Assembly (NCBI GenBank): GCA_030431475.1 | Contig: JAUIJD010000031.1 | Span: forward strand, 1-53,676 | Length of the DNA stretch: 53,676 nt | Source: Verrucomicrobiia bacterium | GTDB lineage: Bacteria > Verrucomicrobiota > Verrucomicrobiia > Verrucomicrobiales > Akkermansiaceae | Reading direction: 5' to 3' | Part shown: in pieces, positions 11,350-21,300 of the stretch | Layout of the letters: each line of letters begins with the position of its first letter | How positions within the stretch are numbered: position 1 is the stretch's first letter | The notes under the pieces: generated by a model | Seen by the model: only the letters and a program-made list of their open reading frames with translations | What the model was told of the DNA's origin: nothing | Database searches by the model: none | Program-made: the position numbers and the translations under genes

Positions 11350-12540
11350 GTGGCGACCATCCCCCACATCGCGATCATCGGCGGCGGGCCGGCCGGACTC
11401 CGCGCCGCCGAAGTCTGCGCCGGCCGCGGCGCGCGCGTCTCGGTCTTCGACCGGAAGCGCTCCGTGGGCCGCAAGCTTCTCGTCGCCGGCTATGGAGGGC
11501 TGAACCTGACCCACGGCGAGGCCCTCGACCACTTCCTCACCCGCTACCGCGGCCCTGACCTGCCCGCCGGCTTCCCCGAAGCGATCCGCCGTTTTCCACC
11601 CCAGGCCCTCCGCCGCTGGGCCGCCGACCTCGGGATCGAAACCTTCGAGCAGCGCACCGGCCGGGTCTATCCGAAGGAAATGAAAGCCGCTCCGCTGCTG
11701 CGGAGGTGGATCGAAAGACTCCGCGGACAGGGCGTGACGTTCCATGTCGACCACGCCCTCACGAGTCTCTCGGCCGGGCCGCGTGCCGGGTTCAACGGTG
11801 GCGAACCCCGCGCCTTCGACACCCTCATCCTGGCCCTCGGAGGCGCCTCGTGGTCCCGGACCGGGTCCGACGGGCGCTGGACCTCGCTACTGGAGGAGCA
11901 AGGCATCCGGATCACCCCGTGGATGCCCGCCAACTGCGGCTGGGAGATCGCGTGGCCCTCCCACCTCATCCCCGCGATCGAGGGGCAACCGCTCAAGAAC
12001 CTCTCGGCACGCGCCGGCGACATGGAAGTCCGGGGAGAGGTGATGCTCACGCGCTACGGGGTCGAGGCGGGTGCGATCTACCAACTCGGCCCCGCCCTCC
12101 GGCAGATGGAACGGCCGGTGATCGAACTCGACCTGAAACCCGAGGTATCGCTCGAGAGACTCTTTCGAAAGATGGAGAGCGCACGCCGGAACGTCGCCGT
12201 CGCCGCGCGGGAACGCCTGCGTCTCACGGAAGCGGCCACCCTTCTGCTCGAGCACTTCCACGGTCCCTTCGACACCTCCGAGGCGTTCTGCCGCGCCGTC
12301 AAGGCGCTCACCCTGCCGGTCGAACGGCCGCGTCCGATCGATGAAGCCATTTCGTCCGCGGGAGGCATCGCCTGGCCGGAGCTTGACGACGGACTCATGC
12401 TCCATCGACTCCCCGGCATCCATGCCTGCGGCGAAATGATCGACTGGGAGGCCCCGACCGGCGGCTACCTGATCCAGGGCTGCTTCGCCACCGCCACCCA
12501 TGCGGCGGAGTCGGCTCTCCGGCGCCTCGGACGGGCGTGA
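11350..12540 (+). CDS. HI0933/TIGR03862-type FAD flavoprotein
   Basis: Predicted FAD-dependent oxidoreductase, about 396 residues from the chosen GTG at 11350. The Rossmann motif 'IAIIGGGPAGLRAAEVCAGRG' is at the N-terminus. The family hallmark 'GRKLLVAGYGGLNLTHGE' follows, as do 'GRVYPKEMKAAPLLRRWI', 'LILALGGASWSRTGSDG' and a C-terminal second flavin segment 'GEMIDWEAPTGGYLIQGC'. The ATG at 11275 would add 25 low-complexity residues and leave only 16 bases to the divergent YegP gene, so GTG is preferred. Members are related to BaiN-like reductases; substrate unknown. Convergent with the next gene. Confidence 0.87.
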   Translation: MATIPHIAIIGGGPAGLRAAEVCAGRGARVSVFDRKRSVGRKLLVAGYGGLNLTHGEALDHFLTRYRGPDLPAGFPEAIRRFPPQALRRWAADLGIETFEQRTGRVYPKEMKAAPLLRRWIERLRGQGVTFHVDHALTSLSAGPRAGFNGGEPRAFDTLILALGGASWSRTGSDGRWTSLLEEQGIRITPWMPANCGWEIAWPSHLIPAIEGQPLKNLSARAGDMEVRGEVMLTRYGVEAGAIYQLGPALRQMERPVIELDLKPEVSLERLFRKMESARRNVAVAARERLRLTEAATLLLEHFHGPFDTSEAFCRAVKALTLPVERPRPIDEAISSAGGIAWPELDDGLMLHRLPGIHACGEMIDWEAPTGGYLIQGCFATATHAAESALRRLGRA

Positions 12541-12548
12541 AACCGTCC

Positions 12549-13172
12549 TCAGGGTGTGACCACCTCGGCCCGGACGATCCGCATCCGGTCACCCTCGAGA
12601 TCAAGCACCCCCGCCACCGTAACCGGATCCCCCCGGCGCAGACCGATCAGGAGGTCCCGCTGACTCTCCTCGAACTCAGCGCGCACGCTGAGGGAACTCG
12701 TCCGTGTCACGTTCCCCTCGTTGAAGCTGTAGGGGACGCGGAGCATCGCCCCGATTCGCCCGTCTCCCTCGTCGCCCCAGACCTCCTCAAGCTCCATGTC
12801 CCAACGCACCGCCGCGCCGTGGGCGCGACGCGCGAAGGTCTCGCGTGCCAGCTCCGTGGACTTCGGGTCCTCCATCATCAGGATGAAATGCCGCGCCGAA
12901 ACTGCATCGCCGTCCTGCAGCGGCTCCAGCGAATCCAGATCCGACGAAGTCAGCTCCATCATCTGAATCCCCTGCTCCGCCGCACTCCGGGCCCGCTCGA
13001 ACTCCGACTGAGCCCTCGTTTCATGGGCAAAGGCCATTTCCTTCACCTCCGCGCTCCTCGCCGTCAGCATCCAATAGATCCCGAGCACCACGATCAGGAA
13101 CAACACCACGATTCCTCCGAAGATCAGCGCCACGATCCGGCACCCGGAATTGCCCTTCTTTTCCATGGCCAT
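12549..13172 (-). CDS. Single-pass membrane protein of unknown function
   Basis: About 208 residues from the ATG at 13172 ('MAMEKKGNSGCRI'). One N-terminal membrane anchor is visible ('IVALIFGGIVVLFLIVVLGI'), then a soluble domain with a helical stretch ('ARSAAEQGIQMMEL') and a C-terminal beta-rich part ending 'VAGVLDLEGDRMRIVRAEVV'. That last segment resembles the OB-like folds seen in membrane-anchored proteins. Longer in-frame starts add a tail rich in charged residues before the anchor and are less likely. No family assignment. Confidence 0.65.
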   Translation of the reverse strand: MAMEKKGNSGCRIVALIFGGIVVLFLIVVLGIYWMLTARSAEVKEMAFAHETRAQSEFERARSAAEQGIQMMELTSSDLDSLEPLQDGDAVSARHFILMMEDPKSTELARETFARRAHGAAVRWDMELEEVWGDEGDGRIGAMLRVPYSFNEGNVTRTSSLSVRAEFEESQRDLLIGLRRGDPVTVAGVLDLEGDRMRIVRAEVVTP

Positions 13173-13264
13173 CAGCCAATCACCCCGCCCGGGAGCCCGC
13201 CACTCCAAAACGGACGCGCATTTCTCATTCGTCATTCGCCGCCCTTCCATGGACATTCCCCGGC

Positions 13265-14413
13265 GTGCCCCGCGTTTCGATCAAGACCGTCTCCTTCCAC
13301 CCGTCGATCTGGCCGAAAATGATCGGCGACGCCTCGCCGGACGCCCGTCCGGGCGATCTGGTCGAAGTGCTCGACCGAAACGGCGACACGTTCGGCTGGG
13401 GCCTCTTCAACCCCCGCTCGAACATGCCTCTCCGCATCGTGCGACACGGCGCCGAGCCGGTCGACGAGGGGTTCTTTCTCCAGGCGATCCGGGATGCCGC
13501 GGCCCTGCGGCGCGACCTGCTCGACGATGGCCTCGAGGCGTTCCGCTGCGTCCACGCCGACGCCGACCGCCTCCCGGGACTGGTCGCCGACCGCTTCGGG
13601 GACATCCTCTCGGTGGAAGTGACCGCCCTCGGGGCCTGGACCCGCCTCGCTGAGTGGATCCCCGCCCTCCACGAGGCCTTCGGAACCGCGCGCACCCACC
13701 TGCGGGTCGATCCGAAGCTGGCCCGCATCGAGGGTATTCCGCAGAAGTCCCACCCGCTCGCGGACGCCGATCTCCGGAGAGTGAAGATCCGCGAGCACGG
13801 CGCCATCTTCGAGATCGACTTCGCCGAAGGACACAAGACCGGCTTTTTCTGCGATCAGCGGGACAACCGGCAACGGTTCGCCGCTCTCGCAGCCGGCCGG
13901 AGCGTGCTCGACCTCTGCAGCTACACCGGTGCCTTCTCCGTGCAGGCGGCGCTCGCGGGAGCCACCGAGGTCACCGGTGTCGACCTGGACGAAAAGGCGA
14001 TCGCCATGGCGAAGCGCAACGCCAACCTGAACCAGACAAGGGTCCGCTTCACCCACGCCGATGCGTTCACCTGGGCCCGCACCATGGTGGACAACGGCCG
14101 CCAGTGGGACCTGGTGCTCGTCGATCCCCCGAAGTTCGTGACCAGCCGCGACGACGAGCGGGGCCGCGGCAAATACAACGACCTCAACCGCCTGGCCGCA
14201 CAGCTCGTCAAACCCGGTGGCTACCTGGTCAGTTGCTCCTGTTCCGGGCAGGTCAACGAGTTCGAGTTCGAGAAGCTCGTGACCACCGCCGTGCACAAGG
14301 AGCAGAAGCGCCTGCAGATCTTCAACCGGACCGGCGCCGGAGCCGACCATCCCACACTCTCCAACTACCCCGAATCCCGCTACCTCAAGGTGATCTGGGG
14401 CCGGGTGATCTGA
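13265..14413 (+). CDS. rlmI: Class I SAM-dependent rRNA methyltransferase, RlmI-like
   Basis: 382-residue protein, GTG start. An N-terminal PUA-like domain (about 1-75: 'WPKMIGDASPDARPGDLVEV', 'NPRSNMPLRIV') precedes an EEHEE and Rossmann methyltransferase core. SAM-binding 'LDLCSYTGAFSVQAALAGA' is at about 220, 'GVDLDEKAIAMAKRNA' follows, and the catalytic-type 'LVLVDPPKF' is at about 285. This is the RlmI/RlmK COG1092 layout, which methylates cytosine-5 in 23S rRNA. Length fits. Paralogues in this family can have other rRNA targets, so the exact base is inferred. A palindromic repeat begins 12 bases after the stop. Confidence 0.88.
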   Translation: MPRVSIKTVSFHPSIWPKMIGDASPDARPGDLVEVLDRNGDTFGWGLFNPRSNMPLRIVRHGAEPVDEGFFLQAIRDAAALRRDLLDDGLEAFRCVHADADRLPGLVADRFGDILSVEVTALGAWTRLAEWIPALHEAFGTARTHLRVDPKLARIEGIPQKSHPLADADLRRVKIREHGAIFEIDFAEGHKTGFFCDQRDNRQRFAALAAGRSVLDLCSYTGAFSVQAALAGATEVTGVDLDEKAIAMAKRNANLNQTRVRFTHADAFTWARTMVDNGRQWDLVLVDPPKFVTSRDDERGRGKYNDLNRLAAQLVKPGGYLVSCSCSGQVNEFEFEKLVTTAVHKEQKRLQIFNRTGAGADHPTLSNYPESRYLKVIWGRVI

Positions 14414-14425
14414 GGAGATCCCGGA

Positions 14426-14460
14426 GGAATGGCTTTCAGGGAACCATGAGCCGGGTGGGG
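14426..14460. repeat. Partial copy of the GGAGTGG palindromic repeat
   Basis: A 35-base fragment 'GGAATGGC...CCATGAGCCGGGTGGGG' matches the left half of the full copy at 14488-14603. It begins 12 bases after the rlmI stop, the same offset as the copies at 30407 and 47795. Confidence 0.7.
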
Positions 14461-14487
14461 ACCGGGATGCGCCAGCGGTTGCGCGGG

Positions 14488-14603
14488 GGAGTGGCTCCTT
14501 TCGAGGAGCCATGAGCCGGGTGGGAGGCTTTCCAGCCTCCCGAAGCCGCCCCGAAGGCTTCTCCCGGCGACCCGGCTCATGGCGCTTTCCAAAGCACCAC
14601 TCC
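14488..14603. repeat. Palindromic intergenic repeat (copy A)
   Basis: 116-base element with inverted ends GGAGTGGC / GCACCACTCC. Inside are ATGAGCCGGGT ... ACCCGGCTCAT, the hairpins GGCTCC-TTTCGA-GGAGCC and GGGAGGC-TTTCCA-GCCTCCC, and a variable centre. Copies B (30407-30514) and C (47795-47912) share ends, internal motifs and size. It looks like a MITE/REPIN-type structured repeat that could fold in RNA as a long hairpin at gene 3' ends. Confidence 0.85.
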
Positions 14604-14629
14604 ACCCGCCATGCGCCACCTCGGGTACG

Positions 14630-14666
14630 CAAAAAGGCCCCTCGTCGGTTCCCCGACGAGGGGCCT
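14630..14666 (-). terminator. Strong intrinsic terminator of the 1.06-kb RNA
   Basis: Read on the minus strand: a perfect 14-base-pair stem (arms 14653-14666 and 14635-14648) with a GGAA loop, followed by TTTT (14634-14631). The last arm ends GAGGGGCCT and runs straight into the T tract. It closes the non-coding transcript that starts near 15696. Confidence 0.92.
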
Positions 14667-15696
14667 CATGCCGGATCTTTCGATCCATCCTTCCCTACCG
14701 ACCCCACTCGGAGCCTGAAAGAGGAAGGAGGGGTGTGGGAGCTCGCCACGCTCTCTTTCCCCGGTTGACTGACATTGGGCGCCCGATGCCACCCGTCGAG
14801 TGTCATCGGCTGCCAGTTCCCCGACGCCGCGCTCGCTTGCGAAGGACGATTCGCCTGCTTTCCGGCTCCGCGGCGGAGCCGGCCGACGGTGTCACCACCA
14901 TCGGCTTCTCGGGTGAGACTTCTTGGCCCGACTTCCGCGCGCCTGCCGGCGCTCCGGTTTCCGGACCCCTGGATATGACCGACCCCGCTGAGTACGGTGT
15001 CTGTCCTCCGTTTGGCTTTTCCGAGGTCGGCATCCCGCCTGCGCGGGATCGTTTGCCTCGAAATACGGGTCTTGTCTCTTACCCCTCACGTTGCGTTCTT
15101 CATCTCAGGCGGACGACTCCGTTCCCGGAACCTCCCGCACCTTCGGACCTTATCGACCCTGCCCGGGGTCATCGCCTCGCCAGGCGCCTTCCGTCGAGCG
15201 GTCTCAATCCGCGATGGGCGGCTCCCTTTTCATCCCTCCCGGTTGCGACACCGGGCGGACTGTGCGGCCTTCTTCGCTTATCGTCCATTGGCCGCGGGAT
15301 CCTCTCCCACCACACTGGCTCACAGTAGCAACGATCGGTCTTGGACCGACTGTGTCCGCCTCCTTTCCTCCTCAACCCGGAGGTCCGGTGCGTAACTCGG
15401 CTTCGCGACGGTTGTGCGGAACCTGCTGGTCCGGCCGGACCGGCTCCGCGTCGCTCGCCGCCTCACTTCCCGGTCGCTTGCACGCGGAGCGGTGCGACCC
15501 GCCCCGGGGAAATGGGTGACATTGGCCTCGGACCATCCGCAGTTCGAAAACCCGGCGGTATCCAAGGGGCCGGGAACGCCAGTTCATCCCGACCATTTTC
15601 CGGACTTTCGCCCGGACTTATCCTGAACACGCTTTCAACCTCGAAAGGCCTTCCACGCATCCCCATCTGTCAAAGATCAATGTTCCGTAGGGAACA
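14631..15696 (-). ncRNA. Candidate large structured non-coding RNA (~1.06 kb)
   Basis: No convincing protein-coding frame exists here, yet the strand has a promoter at one end and a strong terminator at the other. The transcript is packed with self-complementary helices. Examples: CCGGGC-GAAA-GUCCGG at about 15601-15620; an 8-bp stem GGUCGGGA/UCCCGGCC; a 7-bp GGCGGAC/GUCCGCC helix (15360 to about 15255) enclosing at least three further hairpins, including UCGGUC-CAA-GACCGA and GCGGCC/GGCCGC; AUCCCGC-GCAG-GCGGGAU nested in CGAGG/CCUCG near 15030-15060; GGCUCCG-CCG-CGGAGCC at 14880-14864; GGAUC-GAAA-GAUCC just before the terminator. GNRA loops and multibranch domains are typical of large ornate RNAs. 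I find none of the universal motifs of 16S, 23S, 5S, RNase P, tmRNA or group II intron domain V. Identity unknown. Confidence 0.72.
15668..15696 (-). promoter_or_regulatory. rrn-like boxB hairpin and boxA antitermination leader
   Basis: Read on the minus strand, the predicted transcript begins with hairpin TGTTCC-CTAC-GGAACA (15696-15681). TTGATCTTTGACAG follows (15680-15667). The latter closely matches the boxA element of rRNA leaders (E. coli TGCTCTTTAACA), and hairpin-then-boxA is the rrn order. BoxA is bound by NusB-S10, and this window encodes a NusB at 31067-31951. Confidence 0.7.
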
Positions 15697-15702
15697 CTGC
15701 GA

Positions 15703-15731
15703 AGTAAACATGAAGGCGTCGGGAGCGTCAA
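15703..15731 (-). promoter_or_regulatory. Sigma70-type promoter of the large RNA
   Basis: On the minus strand, -35 TTGACG (15731-15726), a 17-base spacer, and -10 TTTACT (15708-15703). Predicted start is near 15696, right at the leader hairpin. It is the best consensus promoter I see in the window. Confidence 0.82.
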
Positions 15732-15763
15732 CATGAAAATTGCATAAAAAGTTGATTCTCAGC

Positions 15764-15790
15764 AAGTTGTGAATAACCTGTGAACAACTT
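15764..15790. promoter_or_regulatory. AAGTTGT/ACAACTT dyad with DnaA-box-like sites
   Basis: Perfect 7-base inverted arms AAGTTGT (15764-15770) and ACAACTT (15784-15790). Inside are TGTGAATAA (15768-15776; its complement TTATTCACA fits the DnaA-box consensus TTWTNCACA) and TGTGAACAA (15779-15787). The site sits about 35-60 bases upstream of the -35 hexamer, a suitable place for a regulator. Confidence 0.4.
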
Positions 15791-15934
15791 CAGGCTGTCT
15801 CCTGAAAATGAGTTGCTTGCGTGAAAGCGGAGTTTTTCACATCGGCTCCGAAGCGGCGATTCGGCCCGAAATTCTCCCCAGAAGTTGGTGCTCGCGCTGG
15901 CCGGAAGAGCGGTCCGCCCCTTCTGCCTCAAAGA

Positions 15935-16134
15935 AGCGCCGATCATGAAATCGGCACGCCTCGCCGACGGGGTCCGTTCTCCATCGTGAGAAGGCCTGTC
16001 CGCCCACCTCCCCTTATCTAACAAAATCACTCCCGGGAGGTCCCGACATCGGCGGATGACAGCGTCGGCGAGCTGTCTATCCCGGGTTGGCCCCCAGCTT
16101 GGAGGCGAGGCGTGCCGATTTCACAATCGGCGCT
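15935..16134. repeat. 31-base inverted repeat pair upstream of the large RNA
   Basis: Arm 15935-15965 and arm 16104-16134 are near-identical inverted copies (about 29 of 31 bases) of AGCGCCGAT..TGAAATCGGCA..GCCTCGCC. Each arm also contains its own small palindrome GCCGATxxxGAAATCGGC. They enclose about 138 bases with no gene. This may be a REP pair or the ends of a decayed small element. Confidence 0.65.
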
Positions 16135-16158
16135 CCACCCATCCACCATCATCCACCA

Positions 16159-18270
16159 TCATCCACCCTGCATCTCCCGCAGGTTCCGCCATTCGTCCAG
16201 CAGACTGGAGTCCACTCCCCGAACCGTCGACTCCAGCAGCTCCGCCGCGGCATCGATCTCATCGTTTCGCAAGGCCGGAGGCACCGTCTGTTCGAGCACC
16301 TTGTAGACCTCCGATAGGTACCGTAGCAACACCCCCTCGCTCCGTTCGAGACCGTAGCGCTTCACGTAGTCCTCGAAGCTCTCGTGCCGCTCGACCATCT
16401 CCCGGGCGACCGACTTGGGACGCACTCCGGCATCCCGGGCCCAGGGATGCTTCACGACGAACTCGTTGTAGGTCGTGTAGATGAACTCCTTCCCGGGTTT
16501 CGGGTGCTCCACCTCCATCAGCCGTTCCATCCGCTCCTCGTACTCCACCCCCTCGGCCTTCAGCTCCGCCACCAACTCGCCCTTCAGCTTGTCGACCTGC
16601 TTGCGCAGGACCGCACCCGGATCCTCGACGATCGCCTCGACCAGCGACAGCACGTTGAGCGCGTAGTCGCCGTCCTCCGGATCGAGCTGCGGAAGGGTCT
16701 CCAGCAGATAGAGTCCGAGCGTGTGGTGCATCGAGAACTCGTCCGGCAAGCGGTCCTGGAGGATCAGCTTCGAGAGCCCGGTCCTCTCACCGCGGGGCAC
16801 GATCTCGAGCACCTTCCCCTCGACCAGCGCCCGGAAGAGCTCGAAACCGCGACGGCGCAGCGCCCGCTTGCCGGCATCCGTCTCATGACAGCGCCGAATC
16901 AGTTCGCGGACCGCCGCGCAGCCGTCCTCACCCTCCCGCGACAGCACCTGCAGCAACAGCCCGTGGCTCACGGAGAACGACGACCGCAAGGCCTCCGGCG
17001 GGGATTCTTGGAGCTTGAGAAAGGTCTTCTCGTCCCAGTTGACGAAACCCTTCTCCGGCGGCCGCTTCTTCGGTGCCCTGCTCTTCTTCCCCTTTGCCGC
17101 CGCCTTTTCCTCGGCCTTCAGGTTCTCGATCACGTGCTCGGGCGCCTGGGCGATGACGTAGCCGATGTCGTCGAACCCCCGCCGGCCGGCCCGGCCGCAG
17201 ATCTGCTTGAAGTCTCTTACCGCCAGGATGCTGGTACTCGTACCACCGTACTTGAAGAGCTGGGTGAAGAGCACCGTGCGGATCGGCACGTTGACTCCCA
17301 CCCCCAGCGTGTCGGTTCCGCAGATCACCTTGAGCAGCCCGGCCTGTGCCAGCCGTTCGACCAGCACCCGGTACTTCGGCAGGAGCCCGGCATGATGGAT
17401 GCCGAGACCGTGCCGCAGGAGCTTCTTCAGATCCTTGCCGTAGGGGCTCCTGAAGTCGGCTTCCTCCAGCATCTCCGCAATCCGCTCCTTCTCGGTCTTC
17501 GAGCAGAAGTTGCGACTCATCAGGTTCTGGGCCGTTCGGGCGCAACCAAGCTGGGTGAAGTGGACCAGGTAGATCGGCGCCTTCCCGGCCTCGACCAGCT
17601 CCTCCACCTTCTCCTCAAGCTGGGTGGTGCTGTATTCGAACTCCAGCGGCACCGGCCGATCCTCGCTCTTCACCAGCGCCGTCGGAGCCCCGGTCAGGCG
17701 GGTCAGCTCGCTCTCGAAGAACGAGGTCTCGCCCAGCGTCGCCGACATCAGCAGGAAGCGGGCCCGGGACAGGGTGAGCAAGGGAACCTGCCAGGCGCCC
17801 CCCCGGTCGGTGTCCGAGTAATAGTGGAACTCGTCCATCACCACATCGTCGACCGGCGCGCCTTCCCCCTCCCTCAGGGCCAGGTTTGCGAGGATCTCGG
17901 CGGTGCAGCAGATCACCGGAGCCCCGGCGTTCACCGACGCGTCGCCGGTGATCATCCCCACCTTCTCCGCGCCGAAGGTCCGGCACAGCGAGAGGAACTT
18001 CTCATTGGCCAGCGCCTTGATCGGCACCGTGTAGTAGCAGGTGCGACCCCGGCAGATCGCGCGGAACTGCAGCGCCAGCGCGACCAGGGACTTCCCCGAG
18101 CCGGTCGGCGTGTTGAGGATCACGTTCTTCCCCGCGAACAGCTCGAGGATGGCCGCCTCCTGGTGGTCGTAGGGCTCGATCCCCGACTCCACGAGCCAGT
18201 CGAGGAAGACCCCGAGGATCTCGTCGTCCGAGTCCGGGTCGGCAACCTTCGCGGGATCGAGTGCGGCCAT
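16159..18270 (-). CDS. Ski2-like superfamily 2 helicase with DUF3516
   Basis: 703-residue helicase from the ATG at 18270 (an upstream in-frame start adds 26 unlikely residues). Motifs: Walker A 'TPTGSGKS' at 54-61, '[10 protein letters not shown]', DEVH-box variant DEFH at 146-149, 'SATLG', '[12 protein letters not shown]', and motif VI '[10 protein letters not shown]'. A basic linker (about 405-425, '[17 protein letters not shown]') precedes the DUF3516 C-terminal region. The DEFH/GIHHAG features are those of Ski2/Mtr4 RNA helicases, so an RNA substrate is likely (inference). It lies downstream of smc on the same strand and immediately upstream of the large RNA locus. A short ATCCACC tandem repeat sits at its 3' end. 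Confidence 0.9.
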
Positions 18271-18394
18271 GCGGGCCGGACCCTGAGGGATGACGCCCGC
18301 GAAGCAAGGGTGGGCAGGGAGAAAGTGGAAGACGGAGCCGGTGCCCACCCGGGCCCGTGCTCCGTCTTCCGGTTTCCTCTCCTATCGGAAATCC

Positions 18395-21300
18395 TCAGGC
18401 GTCGAGCCTCAGCGCCGCCTTCTGTGCCGCGGTCTTGGCGTCGCCCTTCGCGGTCAAATCGTCGCCGCCGGTCAGGCGCATGCCGACACGCTTGGACACG
18501 CCGAACTCCTCCATCGTCACGCCATACATCACGTCCACGCGGCTCATGGTGCGCTTCGAGTGGGTCACGATGATGAACTGCGAGCGGTCGACGAAGCGAT
18601 CGAGCACCTTGACGAAGCGTCCGATGTTCGACTCGTCCAGCGGCGCATCGAGCTCGTCGAGCACGCAGAAGGGACTCGGCTTGATCATGTAGATCGAGAA
18701 CAACAGCGCGACGGCCGTCATCGACCGCTCGCCGCCCGAGAGCAGCGCGATCGACTGCAGCTTCTTGCCCGGCGGCTTGGCCACCACCTCGATGCCCGAC
18801 TCGAGAGGATCGCTCTCGTCGATGAGTTCGAGGTCGGCCTTGCCCTTCTCGCCGAAGAGCTCCTTGAACATGTCGCGGAAGTTCTTCTTCACCTGCGCGA
18901 AGGTCTCGCTGAAGCGGCGCTGCGTCTCCTCGTTGATCTTCTCGATGACCTGCAGCAGCTCCTCCTTGGAGGAAACGAGGTCCTCGTAGTTCTTCTTCAC
19001 GTCCTGGTGACGCTCCTCGAGTTCCTCGTATTCCTCGATCGCGTCGAGGTTGACCGGGCCCATCGAGTCGAGCCGGCGCTTCAGGTCGCCCACGCAGCCC
19101 TCGACGAACTCCCAGTCGGGTTCGCCCTCGATCGCCGGCGGCAGCTCGACCTCGTCGGCCGTGCCGTCGACCACCATCACCGGGGCCCCGTCCTCGTCGC
19201 CCTCTTCGGTCGCCTCGACCACCCGGGCGCGACCGCGACCGGCGCCCTTCTTCTGCGAGTCGATGCACGCCAGCAGAGCATGGGCATCGGGCTCGAAGGC
19301 GGCGAGTTCGACGTTGTGGCGCTCGAGGATGGAGTTCACCAGGTTCTCGAGCCGCAGCTCGACCTTGGTCAGCGCCACCTCCTCGCGTCCCCGCTGCTCC
19401 GACATCCGCGCGTGCTCCTTGCGGGCGGTGGAAAGCGTGGCCTCGGCGACATCGATCGCCTCAAGCAATTCGCCGCGCCTCGCACTCCGCGACTCCAGCT
19501 CGGCCTCGAGATCGTGGGCCTCGGCCTCGTGAGTCTCGACCTCGCCGACGAGCTGCTCGTTCTCCTTGGCCGCCGAGTCGATGCGCTCGACGAAGGCATG
19601 AATCTCGGTCTCGCGTCGCACCGCGATCTCCCGCAGCTCGGCGAGGCGCGCCTCCATCGGCTGCTGCCTCTCCTCCTGCGATTGCTTGGCCTTGCGCTCG
19701 ACCGCCAGCGCGGTGCGGATCTCGTTGAGGGCATCGGCCATCTCCGCCTCCTCGCGGTGCGCGTCGTCGAGCTCGCTTTGCAGGCGCCGCTGGTCGGTCT
19801 CGGCCGCCTCCAACCGCTCGCGCGCGGCCGCCAGTTCCGATTCCATGCTGCTGCGACCCTCGACCACCGACTTCTCGCGGTTGTCGAGTTCACCGCGCTC
19901 CCAGCGGACGTTCTCCAGCTTGCTCTCGACACCCTCGACCTCGCGCCGGGCCAGCGTCTGCTGCCCTTCCAGCGTGGAAAGCTCGACCTTGTGACGCTGC
20001 ACGCGGTCGCGGGCCGTCTCCAGCTCCTCCTGCCAGGTCGCGATCGACTCCTCGAGTTCGCCGACCCGGCCCCGCGCCTTCTCCTCGGCGGCGGTCAGTC
20101 CGGCCACCTCGGCCTCCAGGTCGCGCACCTCGTTCTGGCGCTCGAGCACCGACACGTCGCCCTCGCCGGCGGCACCGCCGCGGACGATGCCCTCGGACCC
20201 GACCAGCTCGCCGGCCTTGGTCGCGAACACGACACCCGGCAGATCCTTGCGCAGCCGCATCGCGGTCCCGAGGTCCTCCACCACCAGCACGCGATCGAGC
20301 AACCGCTCGACCACCCCCTGCACCTTCGAATCGACCTTCAGCTTGTCCAGTGCCCAGGCCACCGCGCCATCCGGCACCGCCTCCATCTGGGTCCCGCCGG
20401 AGGCTTCCACAAAACTCCGCGGCAGCACCGCGGCGTGACCGAGCTTCTTCTCGGCGAGGCGCTGGATCAGCGTTTCGGCCAGGGACTCGTCGGAGACCAG
20501 CACCGCCTGCAGGTGCGTACCCAGGGCCGCTTCCACGGCCCGCGCGCATTCCGGGTCGGCCTCCAGAAATCCGGCCAGCACCCCTTCCACCCCCGGCTTG
20601 AAGCGATCCGGCTCGTCGAGACCGTCGAGCACCTTGCGGGTGCCCGCCTCGAAGCCTTCGCCGCTGTCGACGAGTTGCCTCAGCACCTCGAGCCGCGACG
20701 CCCGCTGGGCGAGGGTCTTGTGCGCCTCCGATGCCGCGGTGCGCGCCGCGTCGAGGTCGCCCCGTCCGTGCTGATACTTCCGTTCGGCGCTCTGGAAGGC
20801 CTCCTCCAGCTCCGCCGACCGCGAGGCGTGCTCGTGGAGCATTCCCTCGATCTCCGCCACCCGCTCGCCGGCGCTTTCCAGCTCCTGGGCCAGGCGCTCC
20901 TCCTCCTCGCCGAGCTGGCGTGCCCGCTCGCGACTGGTCTCGAGCTGCGCCTGCGAGCTTTCGATCTTCGCCTGCATCGAGGCAATCATCGTCTGGGTCC
21001 GGTTCGACTCGTTGCGCGCCTCGCGCAGCTTGCCTTCCAGTCCCTCACGGCGGTCGCGCGCCTCGTGGGTCTTCTCGTTCTGGTCGGAAACCTGGATCTC
21101 CATTTCGGCGATCCGGCGCGCCAGCTGTTCGAGCGCCTCGTTGGCCGCGGTGAAGTCGAACTCCTGCTTCTGCAGCTTCTCGCGGGTTGCCTCGATCTCC
21201 TCCCGGTTCTGGCCGATCCGGCCCTCGAGCTCCGCCTTGCGTTCGTTGTTGAAGGCGATCCGCCCCTGCGCGCTGGCGAGCTCGTTGCGGTGCTCGTTGA

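Follow-up and report, generated by a model that had tools for sequence, protein, structure and literature searches.

The structured RNA gene at 15696-14631 (minus strand; about 1.07 kb, with a presumed start near 15696) of the window, by which we mean the whole stretch of 53,676 nucleotides analysed, is almost certainly a diverged member of the MISL family lying just beneath the curation threshold of Rfam. A permissive Rfam cmscan search matched 15623-14738 on the minus strand to MISL (RF03079) over model positions 1-751 of 751, with 273.5 bits and an E-value of 7.3e-82. The gathering cut-off of this family, which is a curation rule and not a structural feature, stands at 274.6 bits, so that the window copy, 1.1 bits below it, is missed by a default Rfam scan; at gathering scores a tRNA was the sole match in the window, and MISL was absent. 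What appears to be new is that MISL genes carry a conserved control region whose sequence resembles DnaA sites together with an rRNA-style anti-termination signal. Upstream elements stretch the locus to 15787, and its features and neighbouring genes are as follows.

15768..15787, minus strand: tandem DnaA-box-like pair TTGTTCACA-GG-TTATTCACA, 2 bp between boxes (family pattern)
15703..15731, minus strand: presumed promoter, TTGACG (15731-15726), 17-nt spacer, TTTACT (15708-15703) (TTGAC conservation)
15664..15678, minus strand: boxA-like element GATCTTTGACAGATG, about +19 from the presumed start (conservation; likeness to rRNA leaders)
15625..15662, minus strand: stem P0, GGATGCG (15662-15656) with CGTGTTC (15631-15625), partly G-U (covariation in alignment A4)
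14738..15623, minus strand: RF03079-covered part of the MISL RNA (cmscan, full model 1-751)
14667..14737, minus strand: 3' extension from the RF03079 end to the terminator, variable among six aligned sequences (alignment)
14631..14666, minus strand: Rho-independent terminator and presumed RNA 3' end (fold; kept in the six-sequence alignment)
16159..18348, minus strand: DEAD-box helicase with DUF3516, co-directional upstream neighbour (PF12029 at 403.6 bits; PF00270)
13265..14413, plus strand: class I methyltransferase resembling the RlmI family (23S rRNA C5-methyltransferases), convergent downstream neighbour (NCBIfam matches all below cut-offs)

Membership of the MISL family

The earlier note, made from the letters of the DNA, had assigned this RNA to an unknown class and had named a strong Rfam hit as evidence that would speak against that assignment; such a hit was found, and the class is no longer an unknown one. 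The same note's description of a large, ornate and free-standing RNA is upheld, and no Rfam match to rRNA, RNase P, tmRNA, SRP, OLE, GOLLD or ROOL was obtained; the last-mentioned three were absent even among the 15 Rfam matches up to E 10 in 14400-16160. The window RNA shares with Rfam MISL the entire model and its consensus structure, in a family that is spread over the phylum, but differs in having 886 bases over the 751 model positions, with insertions and a 3' extension, while stem P0, the boxA-like element and the DnaA-like sites all lie outside the model. The 3' part of the window MISL reaches 171.5 bits against RF03079 by itself.

A DNA search of 97 genomes returned relatives of the window MISL at 85% (G017), 77% (G002), 70% (G014), 68% (G001) and 68% (G042) identity, the first four belonging to the window's genus and G042 being a family member. 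Four of them exceed the RF03079 cut-off (G042 with 313.3, G017 with 295.6, G014 with 291.3 and G001 with 280.4 bits), and G002, with 267.6 bits, falls below it. A 56-bp DNA match in G051 (L007) was set aside, the surrounding stretch being free of MISL by Rfam search.

A survey of 387 genomes of the phylum found MISL in 31, the genome of the window among them, with 27 above the cut-off, and 14 control genomes gave none; within the window's genus it occurs in 5 of 18 genomes, the window's genome again being counted. A 23-base core pattern found at least 118 stretches in public genomes, and all 80 titles among the matches listed were, on our reading, verrucomicrobial. The literature searched held no mention of RF03079, and in the literature examined we found no function assigned to MISL, while a chemical-mapping study includes a MISL window by way of example (PMC10925082). 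No report of DnaA or boxA at MISL was found in the literature on MISL, in a search in which the terms were not paired directly and which reached a minority of the subscription papers.

Three motif scans of viral contigs (viral_contigs) saw one MISL-bearing stretch, L263 (IMGVR_UViG_3300034676_001488, 2,347 bases), in which MISL occupies positions 1 to about 478 (254.5 bits) and is joined end to end to an ssRNA phage encoding a maturation protein (830-2026; PF03863) and, from 2060, a coat-like frame with no Pfam match. We rejected L263 as a viral MISL: a related phage, L265, which carries no MISL by Rfam search, begins within about ten bases of the end of the L263 MISL. It is probably an assembly or library chimera made from RNA, in what we take to be a metatranscriptome; since an RNA phage enters such a data set only through RNA, this suggests that MISL was present as RNA. 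The other two of the three scans yielded 0 and 13 stretches, the latter with L263 among them; of the remaining twelve, five were searched with Rfam, as were six phage relatives of L263, and none of these carried MISL.

Transcription unit and stem P0

A structured RNA of more than 1 kb with a likely promoter and terminator on the minus strand had been proposed earlier, and the fold, the terminator and the conservation bear this out. The MISL body (15623-14738) folds at -416.4 kcal/mol, whereas 20 shuffled versions give -385.6 (sd 7), which corresponds to a z of -4.4. The terminator at 14666-14635 (minus) likewise folds as proposed, into a perfectly paired stem of 14 bp capped by GGAA (-32.3 kcal/mol; z of -6.5) and followed by four further T (14634-14631); its GGGNCTTTTNG is shared by all six sequences of an alignment of the window with five relatives. 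An automatic terminator scan passed over 14666-14635, probably because the first T of the run is already part of the stem. Immediately beyond the terminator, at 14440-14585, lie repeated CATGAGCCGGGTGG blocks and an inverted copy, REP-like by eye.

Other details of the earlier description stand in part. The presumed promoter had been called the best in the window, and its TTGAC (15731-15727) is indeed invariant in the same six sequences and, by eye, found at a similar place in most MISL loci outside family f9 (Opitutaceae); together with TTTACT it suits a start near 15696. A mechanical promoter scan of 12500-18500, however, picked a single site at 15784-15755 (one found, 0.5 expected) and left the TTGACG/TTTACT site unlisted, so that the ranking as best promoter is owed to conservation and not to the scan. 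As to the two example helices, CGAGG/CCUCG (15001-15060) is present both in the Rfam consensus and in the fold, whereas the 7-bp helix 15360/15255, although it forms in the fold of the window, lies outside the consensus, its partner strand being lost by eye in G014, G001 and G042. The region had also been said to hold no credible protein gene; mechanical ORFs of up to 249 aa do overlap it, and we take these as incidental because the covariance model matches.

Stem P0 lies directly 5' of the Rfam start and is absent from the RF03079 model. In alignment A4, which retains 70 of 117 loci after near-duplicates and loci without a leader element 40-66 nt from the start were dropped, all five pairs of P0 change on both sides and 86.6% of the helix cells are paired. 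Taken with the small hairpin that precedes it, 89.2% of cells are paired, against 72.9% when shuffled and 18.9-43.3% when slid; one of the five measures in this test is weak, 40 of 500 shuffles reaching the count of pairs that change on both sides. A single-sequence fold of 15624-15696 forms P0, but with a z of -1.3 and with 22 of 200 shuffles equally good. Since loci without the leader element were dropped from A4, conservation of that element in A4 is by selection, which does not apply to the covariation of P0.

Control region of MISL genes

DnaA-box-like sites are strongly concentrated upstream of MISL. At least two such sites were found at 22 of 36 MISL loci against 1 of 1,945 flank windows, and at 60 of 83 held-out loci against 0 of 758; as the loci compared are related, these and the other element counts overstate independence. 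The held-out set comprises those 83 of 101 distinct loci with 900 nt upstream. De novo, the top upstream 9-mer was GTTATTCAC/GTGAATAAC, present in 80 of 115 windows and 4 of 3,892 flanks, while the canonical TTWTNCACA occurs in only 40 of the 115 upstream windows and 13 of the 3,892 flank windows; the 115 windows are those of the 117 loci (36 plus 81 of the 101 held-out loci) with a placeable start. Spacings between sites of the same orientation cluster at 11 bp (26 pairs) and 12 bp (8 pairs), with zero at 9-10 or 13-19. Tandem pairs with 2-3 bp between the boxes, that of the window included, are found at 28 of 115 MISL promoters and in 2 of 3,749 flank windows, and a ChIP-seq study in E. coli reports DnaA binding to box pairs 2 or 3 bp apart (PMC11317965). 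The DnaA-bound E. coli promoters nrdA, mioC and purH resemble MISL in having such tandem boxes near the promoter (PMC11317965), but they drive protein genes, whereas the boxes of MISL are putative and precede a large RNA. In G404 (L055, C44) and G247 (L065, C33), one of two MISL copies lacks DnaA-like sites and keeps the boxA-like element.

The dnaA genes offer a comparison. TTATTCACA, TTGTTCACA or TTATCCACA occurs within 100 nt before the first dnaA start in 12 of 24 genomes (three of these 24 loci, in G191, G353 and G445, end before the gene start), and in 11 of these 12 genomes it lies 27-48 nt before that start; in the window's genus, none of the five genomes with MISL has such a box ahead of dnaA. 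In addition, G002:C1:4419591-4419940 (L371), about 330 kb from MISL, carries three TTATTCACA sites (two forward, one reverse) in 350 bp and may, judging from these letters, be another DnaA-binding locus.

The boxA-like element, searched as TC[TC]TTGANA within 260 nt of the RF03079 model start, is present at 34 of 36 MISL loci against 10 of 1,945 flank windows, and at 60 of 83 held-out loci against 12 of 758. By eye, 22 of the 23 held-out misses carry close variants such as GTTCATTGAAAGAAC, and L148 has none. The rRNA leaders of the same genomes contain the boxA-like core, exact or near, in 8 of 9 genomes with 16S leaders (by eye; that of G014 is too short). The MISL element and the rRNA leader agree over 12 nt in G250 and G211, and in G002 the two (GATCTTTGACAG in MISL, GATCTTTCACAG in the rRNA leader) are identical at 11 of 12 positions, with the common form GATCTTT-ACAG. 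Over its first 12 nt the window element is identical to the MISL element of G002; the genome to which the window belongs, in which no 16S gene was found, has a single TCTTTGACAGA, at the MISL locus. When MISL elements were paired with the rRNA leader of their own genome, 9.29 of 11 positions agreed, against 9.06 for shuffled pairing (P 0.011; 28 genomes, kinship ignored); this set unites eight of the nine earlier 16S-leader genomes with 20 of 21 later ones, G014 being omitted for its short leader and G464 for want of a clear boxA. In family f9, the MISL element is mostly CCTTGATA, and the rRNA leaders seen there have TCTTTGAAA.

An apparent coupling between lineages, in which rRNA leaders have A at position 5 only where MISL does (4 of 9 genomes, against 0 of 19; P 0.006 by Fisher's test), is not relied on, because it depends on which of three leaders is taken for G472 and on a G476 hit just 40 nt away from 16S; once both are set aside, the figures are 2 of 8 and 0 of 19 (P about 0.08).

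Gene context, alternative readings and proposed role

The distribution of MISL is patchy and its neighbours change. The DEAD-box helicase upstream of the window copy also adjoins MISL in G002 and G017; in G016 the interval between helicase and methyltransferase lacks MISL and is home to a protein gene, and G014 and G001 have their MISL outside this interval. Beside the 3' end of the helicase gene, 16138-16167 is by eye a tandem repeat of CATCCACCAT, and two nearby copies of a hairpin, GGCGTGCCGATTT...ATCGGCGC, REP-like by eye, lie at 15937-15965 and 16095-16130. In family f9, MISL is mostly found between hrpB-like and typA/bipA-like genes: clustering of the neighbours of 36 loci placed HrpB-like genes at 19 and TypA/BipA-like genes at 20, all in f9 (NCBIfam named one member of each cluster), and the TypA/BipA-cluster member within 9 kb lies downstream of MISL at 19 of these 20 loci. 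Because neighbours differ between families and the locus moves within the genus, we regard MISL as most likely a trans-acting RNA.

We consider it probable that MISL is a free-standing gene of rRNA style, encoding a scaffold-like RNA under DnaA and Nus control. We regard as shown the family membership, the cis elements with their conservation, stem P0, the terminator and the change of neighbours; beyond these, we infer the binding of DnaA and Nus factors, the direction of the DnaA effect and the role of the RNA, which could be put together as follows: (i) a sigma-70-type promoter, preceded by the DnaA-box-like sites, would start an untranslated RNA of about 1.07 kb; (ii) the boxA-like leader would recruit a NusB-S10 anti-termination complex; (iii) the anti-terminated RNA polymerase would thus cross a long, untranslated, GC-rich transcript without Rho termination while the RNA folds; (iv) transcription would end at the strong intrinsic terminator; (v) if the boxes are real DnaA sites, the amount of MISL RNA would follow replication initiation; and (vi) the RNA would act in trans as a scaffold, either in an RNA-protein particle or in an RNA-only assembly like those of OLE, ROOL and GOLLD. 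On this analysis, a scaffold role in trans is, by analogy, the most likely one, and control by DnaA is probable from the upstream motifs. As in an rRNA operon, the leader has a boxA-like core, the transcript is untranslated and highly structured, and in both the window and G002 the G-rich strand carries the gene, as would be expected for transcription along with replication. MISL differs in containing no ribosomal RNA and, in most members, in an extra GAAC arm after the boxA core; ten rRNA leaders, moreover, showed no tandem DnaA-like pair by eye, a loose pattern flagging single sites in three. OLE, ROOL and GOLLD, to which the window has no match, are likewise described as large, ornate, free-standing bacterial RNAs of poorly understood function (PMC12286853), and they are reported to form RNA-only assemblies (PMC12286853), as MISL, by analogy, may do. 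A point of difference is that the three scans of viral_contigs yielded a single stretch with MISL, the probable chimera L263.

The most substantial alternative, to which we give appreciable though minority weight, is that the upstream repeats are sites of another regulator, such as a dimeric transcription factor, and that the 15-nt leader element is a small hairpin, leaving MISL an ordinary regulated RNA gene. With all loci taken together, no arrangement is more frequent than inverted pairs at 33 bp (26 pairs) and 35 bp (16 pairs), and in f9 the prevailing site is TTATTCACC (17 of 22 loci), which departs from the DnaA consensus at its last base, TTATTCACA being present at only 3, whereas the dnaA genes of that family do carry TTATTCACA. 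The tandem pairs exactly 2-3 bp apart and the perfect DnaA boxes at some loci, however, fit DnaA. In the leader, the GAAC arm that follows the boxA core in most MISL members could pair with GTTC, and these arms are paired in 92.5% of cells of A4; position 5 of the element also varies, being C or A in several lineages. Against a mere hairpin, members of the window's genus retain TCTTTGA with partly disrupted arms, and rRNA leaders share the core, with A at position 5 in four genomes as well, two of the four being doubtful. The boxA and small-hairpin readings of the element can, moreover, coexist.

Other explanations carry far less weight. That MISL acts in cis, as the leader or attenuator of an adjacent gene, is very unlikely: it lies mostly upstream of, and co-directional with, the TypA/BipA-cluster gene in f9, but the distance to that gene ranges from near 0 to more than 2 kb, in the loci read by eye MISL is followed by a hairpin that resembles a terminator and has a T run, and other families have other neighbours, the downstream gene in the window being convergent. 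A present or former role of the locus as an origin or a control site of replication, with MISL as a replication RNA, is highly improbable, though the DnaA-like boxes in an AT-rich patch would favour it. A GC-skew switch at the MISL site was looked for in the window and in G002 and not found: skew is negative on both sides of the window site (in 20 of 21 sliding windows, the exception being some 10 kb distant), and in the complete G002 it changes sign near 2.5 and 5.15 Mb, with MISL at 4.09 Mb (20 sampled places); the mobility of the locus within the genus speaks against an origin as well. Scarcely credible, finally, is a class unrelated to MISL with a chance likeness, or a decayed copy, which the 1.1-bit shortfall and the non-standard pairs marked in several helices of the RF03079 match could suggest. 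An E-value of 7e-82 across all 751 positions leads us to count the chance version as already refuted; the orthologues in G017 and G014 (85% and 70% DNA identity) exceed the cut-off, and the promoter region, P0 and the terminator are all kept.

Returning to MISL as a free-standing gene of rRNA style, its implications extend from annotation to the cell cycle. The Rfam cut-off loses two of five MISL copies in the window's genus, and the RF03079 model can be extended 5' by stem P0. A survey of boxA targets in gammaproteobacteria states that non-coding RNAs lay outside its scope (PMC5725501); if the boxA of MISL is real, the range of boxA would widen to include a large non-coding RNA that is not rRNA. 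We know of no other gene wired with both double DnaA boxes and an rRNA-type boxA. Our boldest proposal, which we put forward tentatively and at somewhat less than even confidence, is that the double DnaA boxes tie MISL transcription to replication initiation and the rRNA-type boxA carries the polymerase through, which would make MISL a replication-coupled structural RNA kept phylum-wide. The conserved DnaA-like double boxes and boxA-like leader offer handles for testing the switch, the mode of transcription and the cell-cycle timing of MISL.
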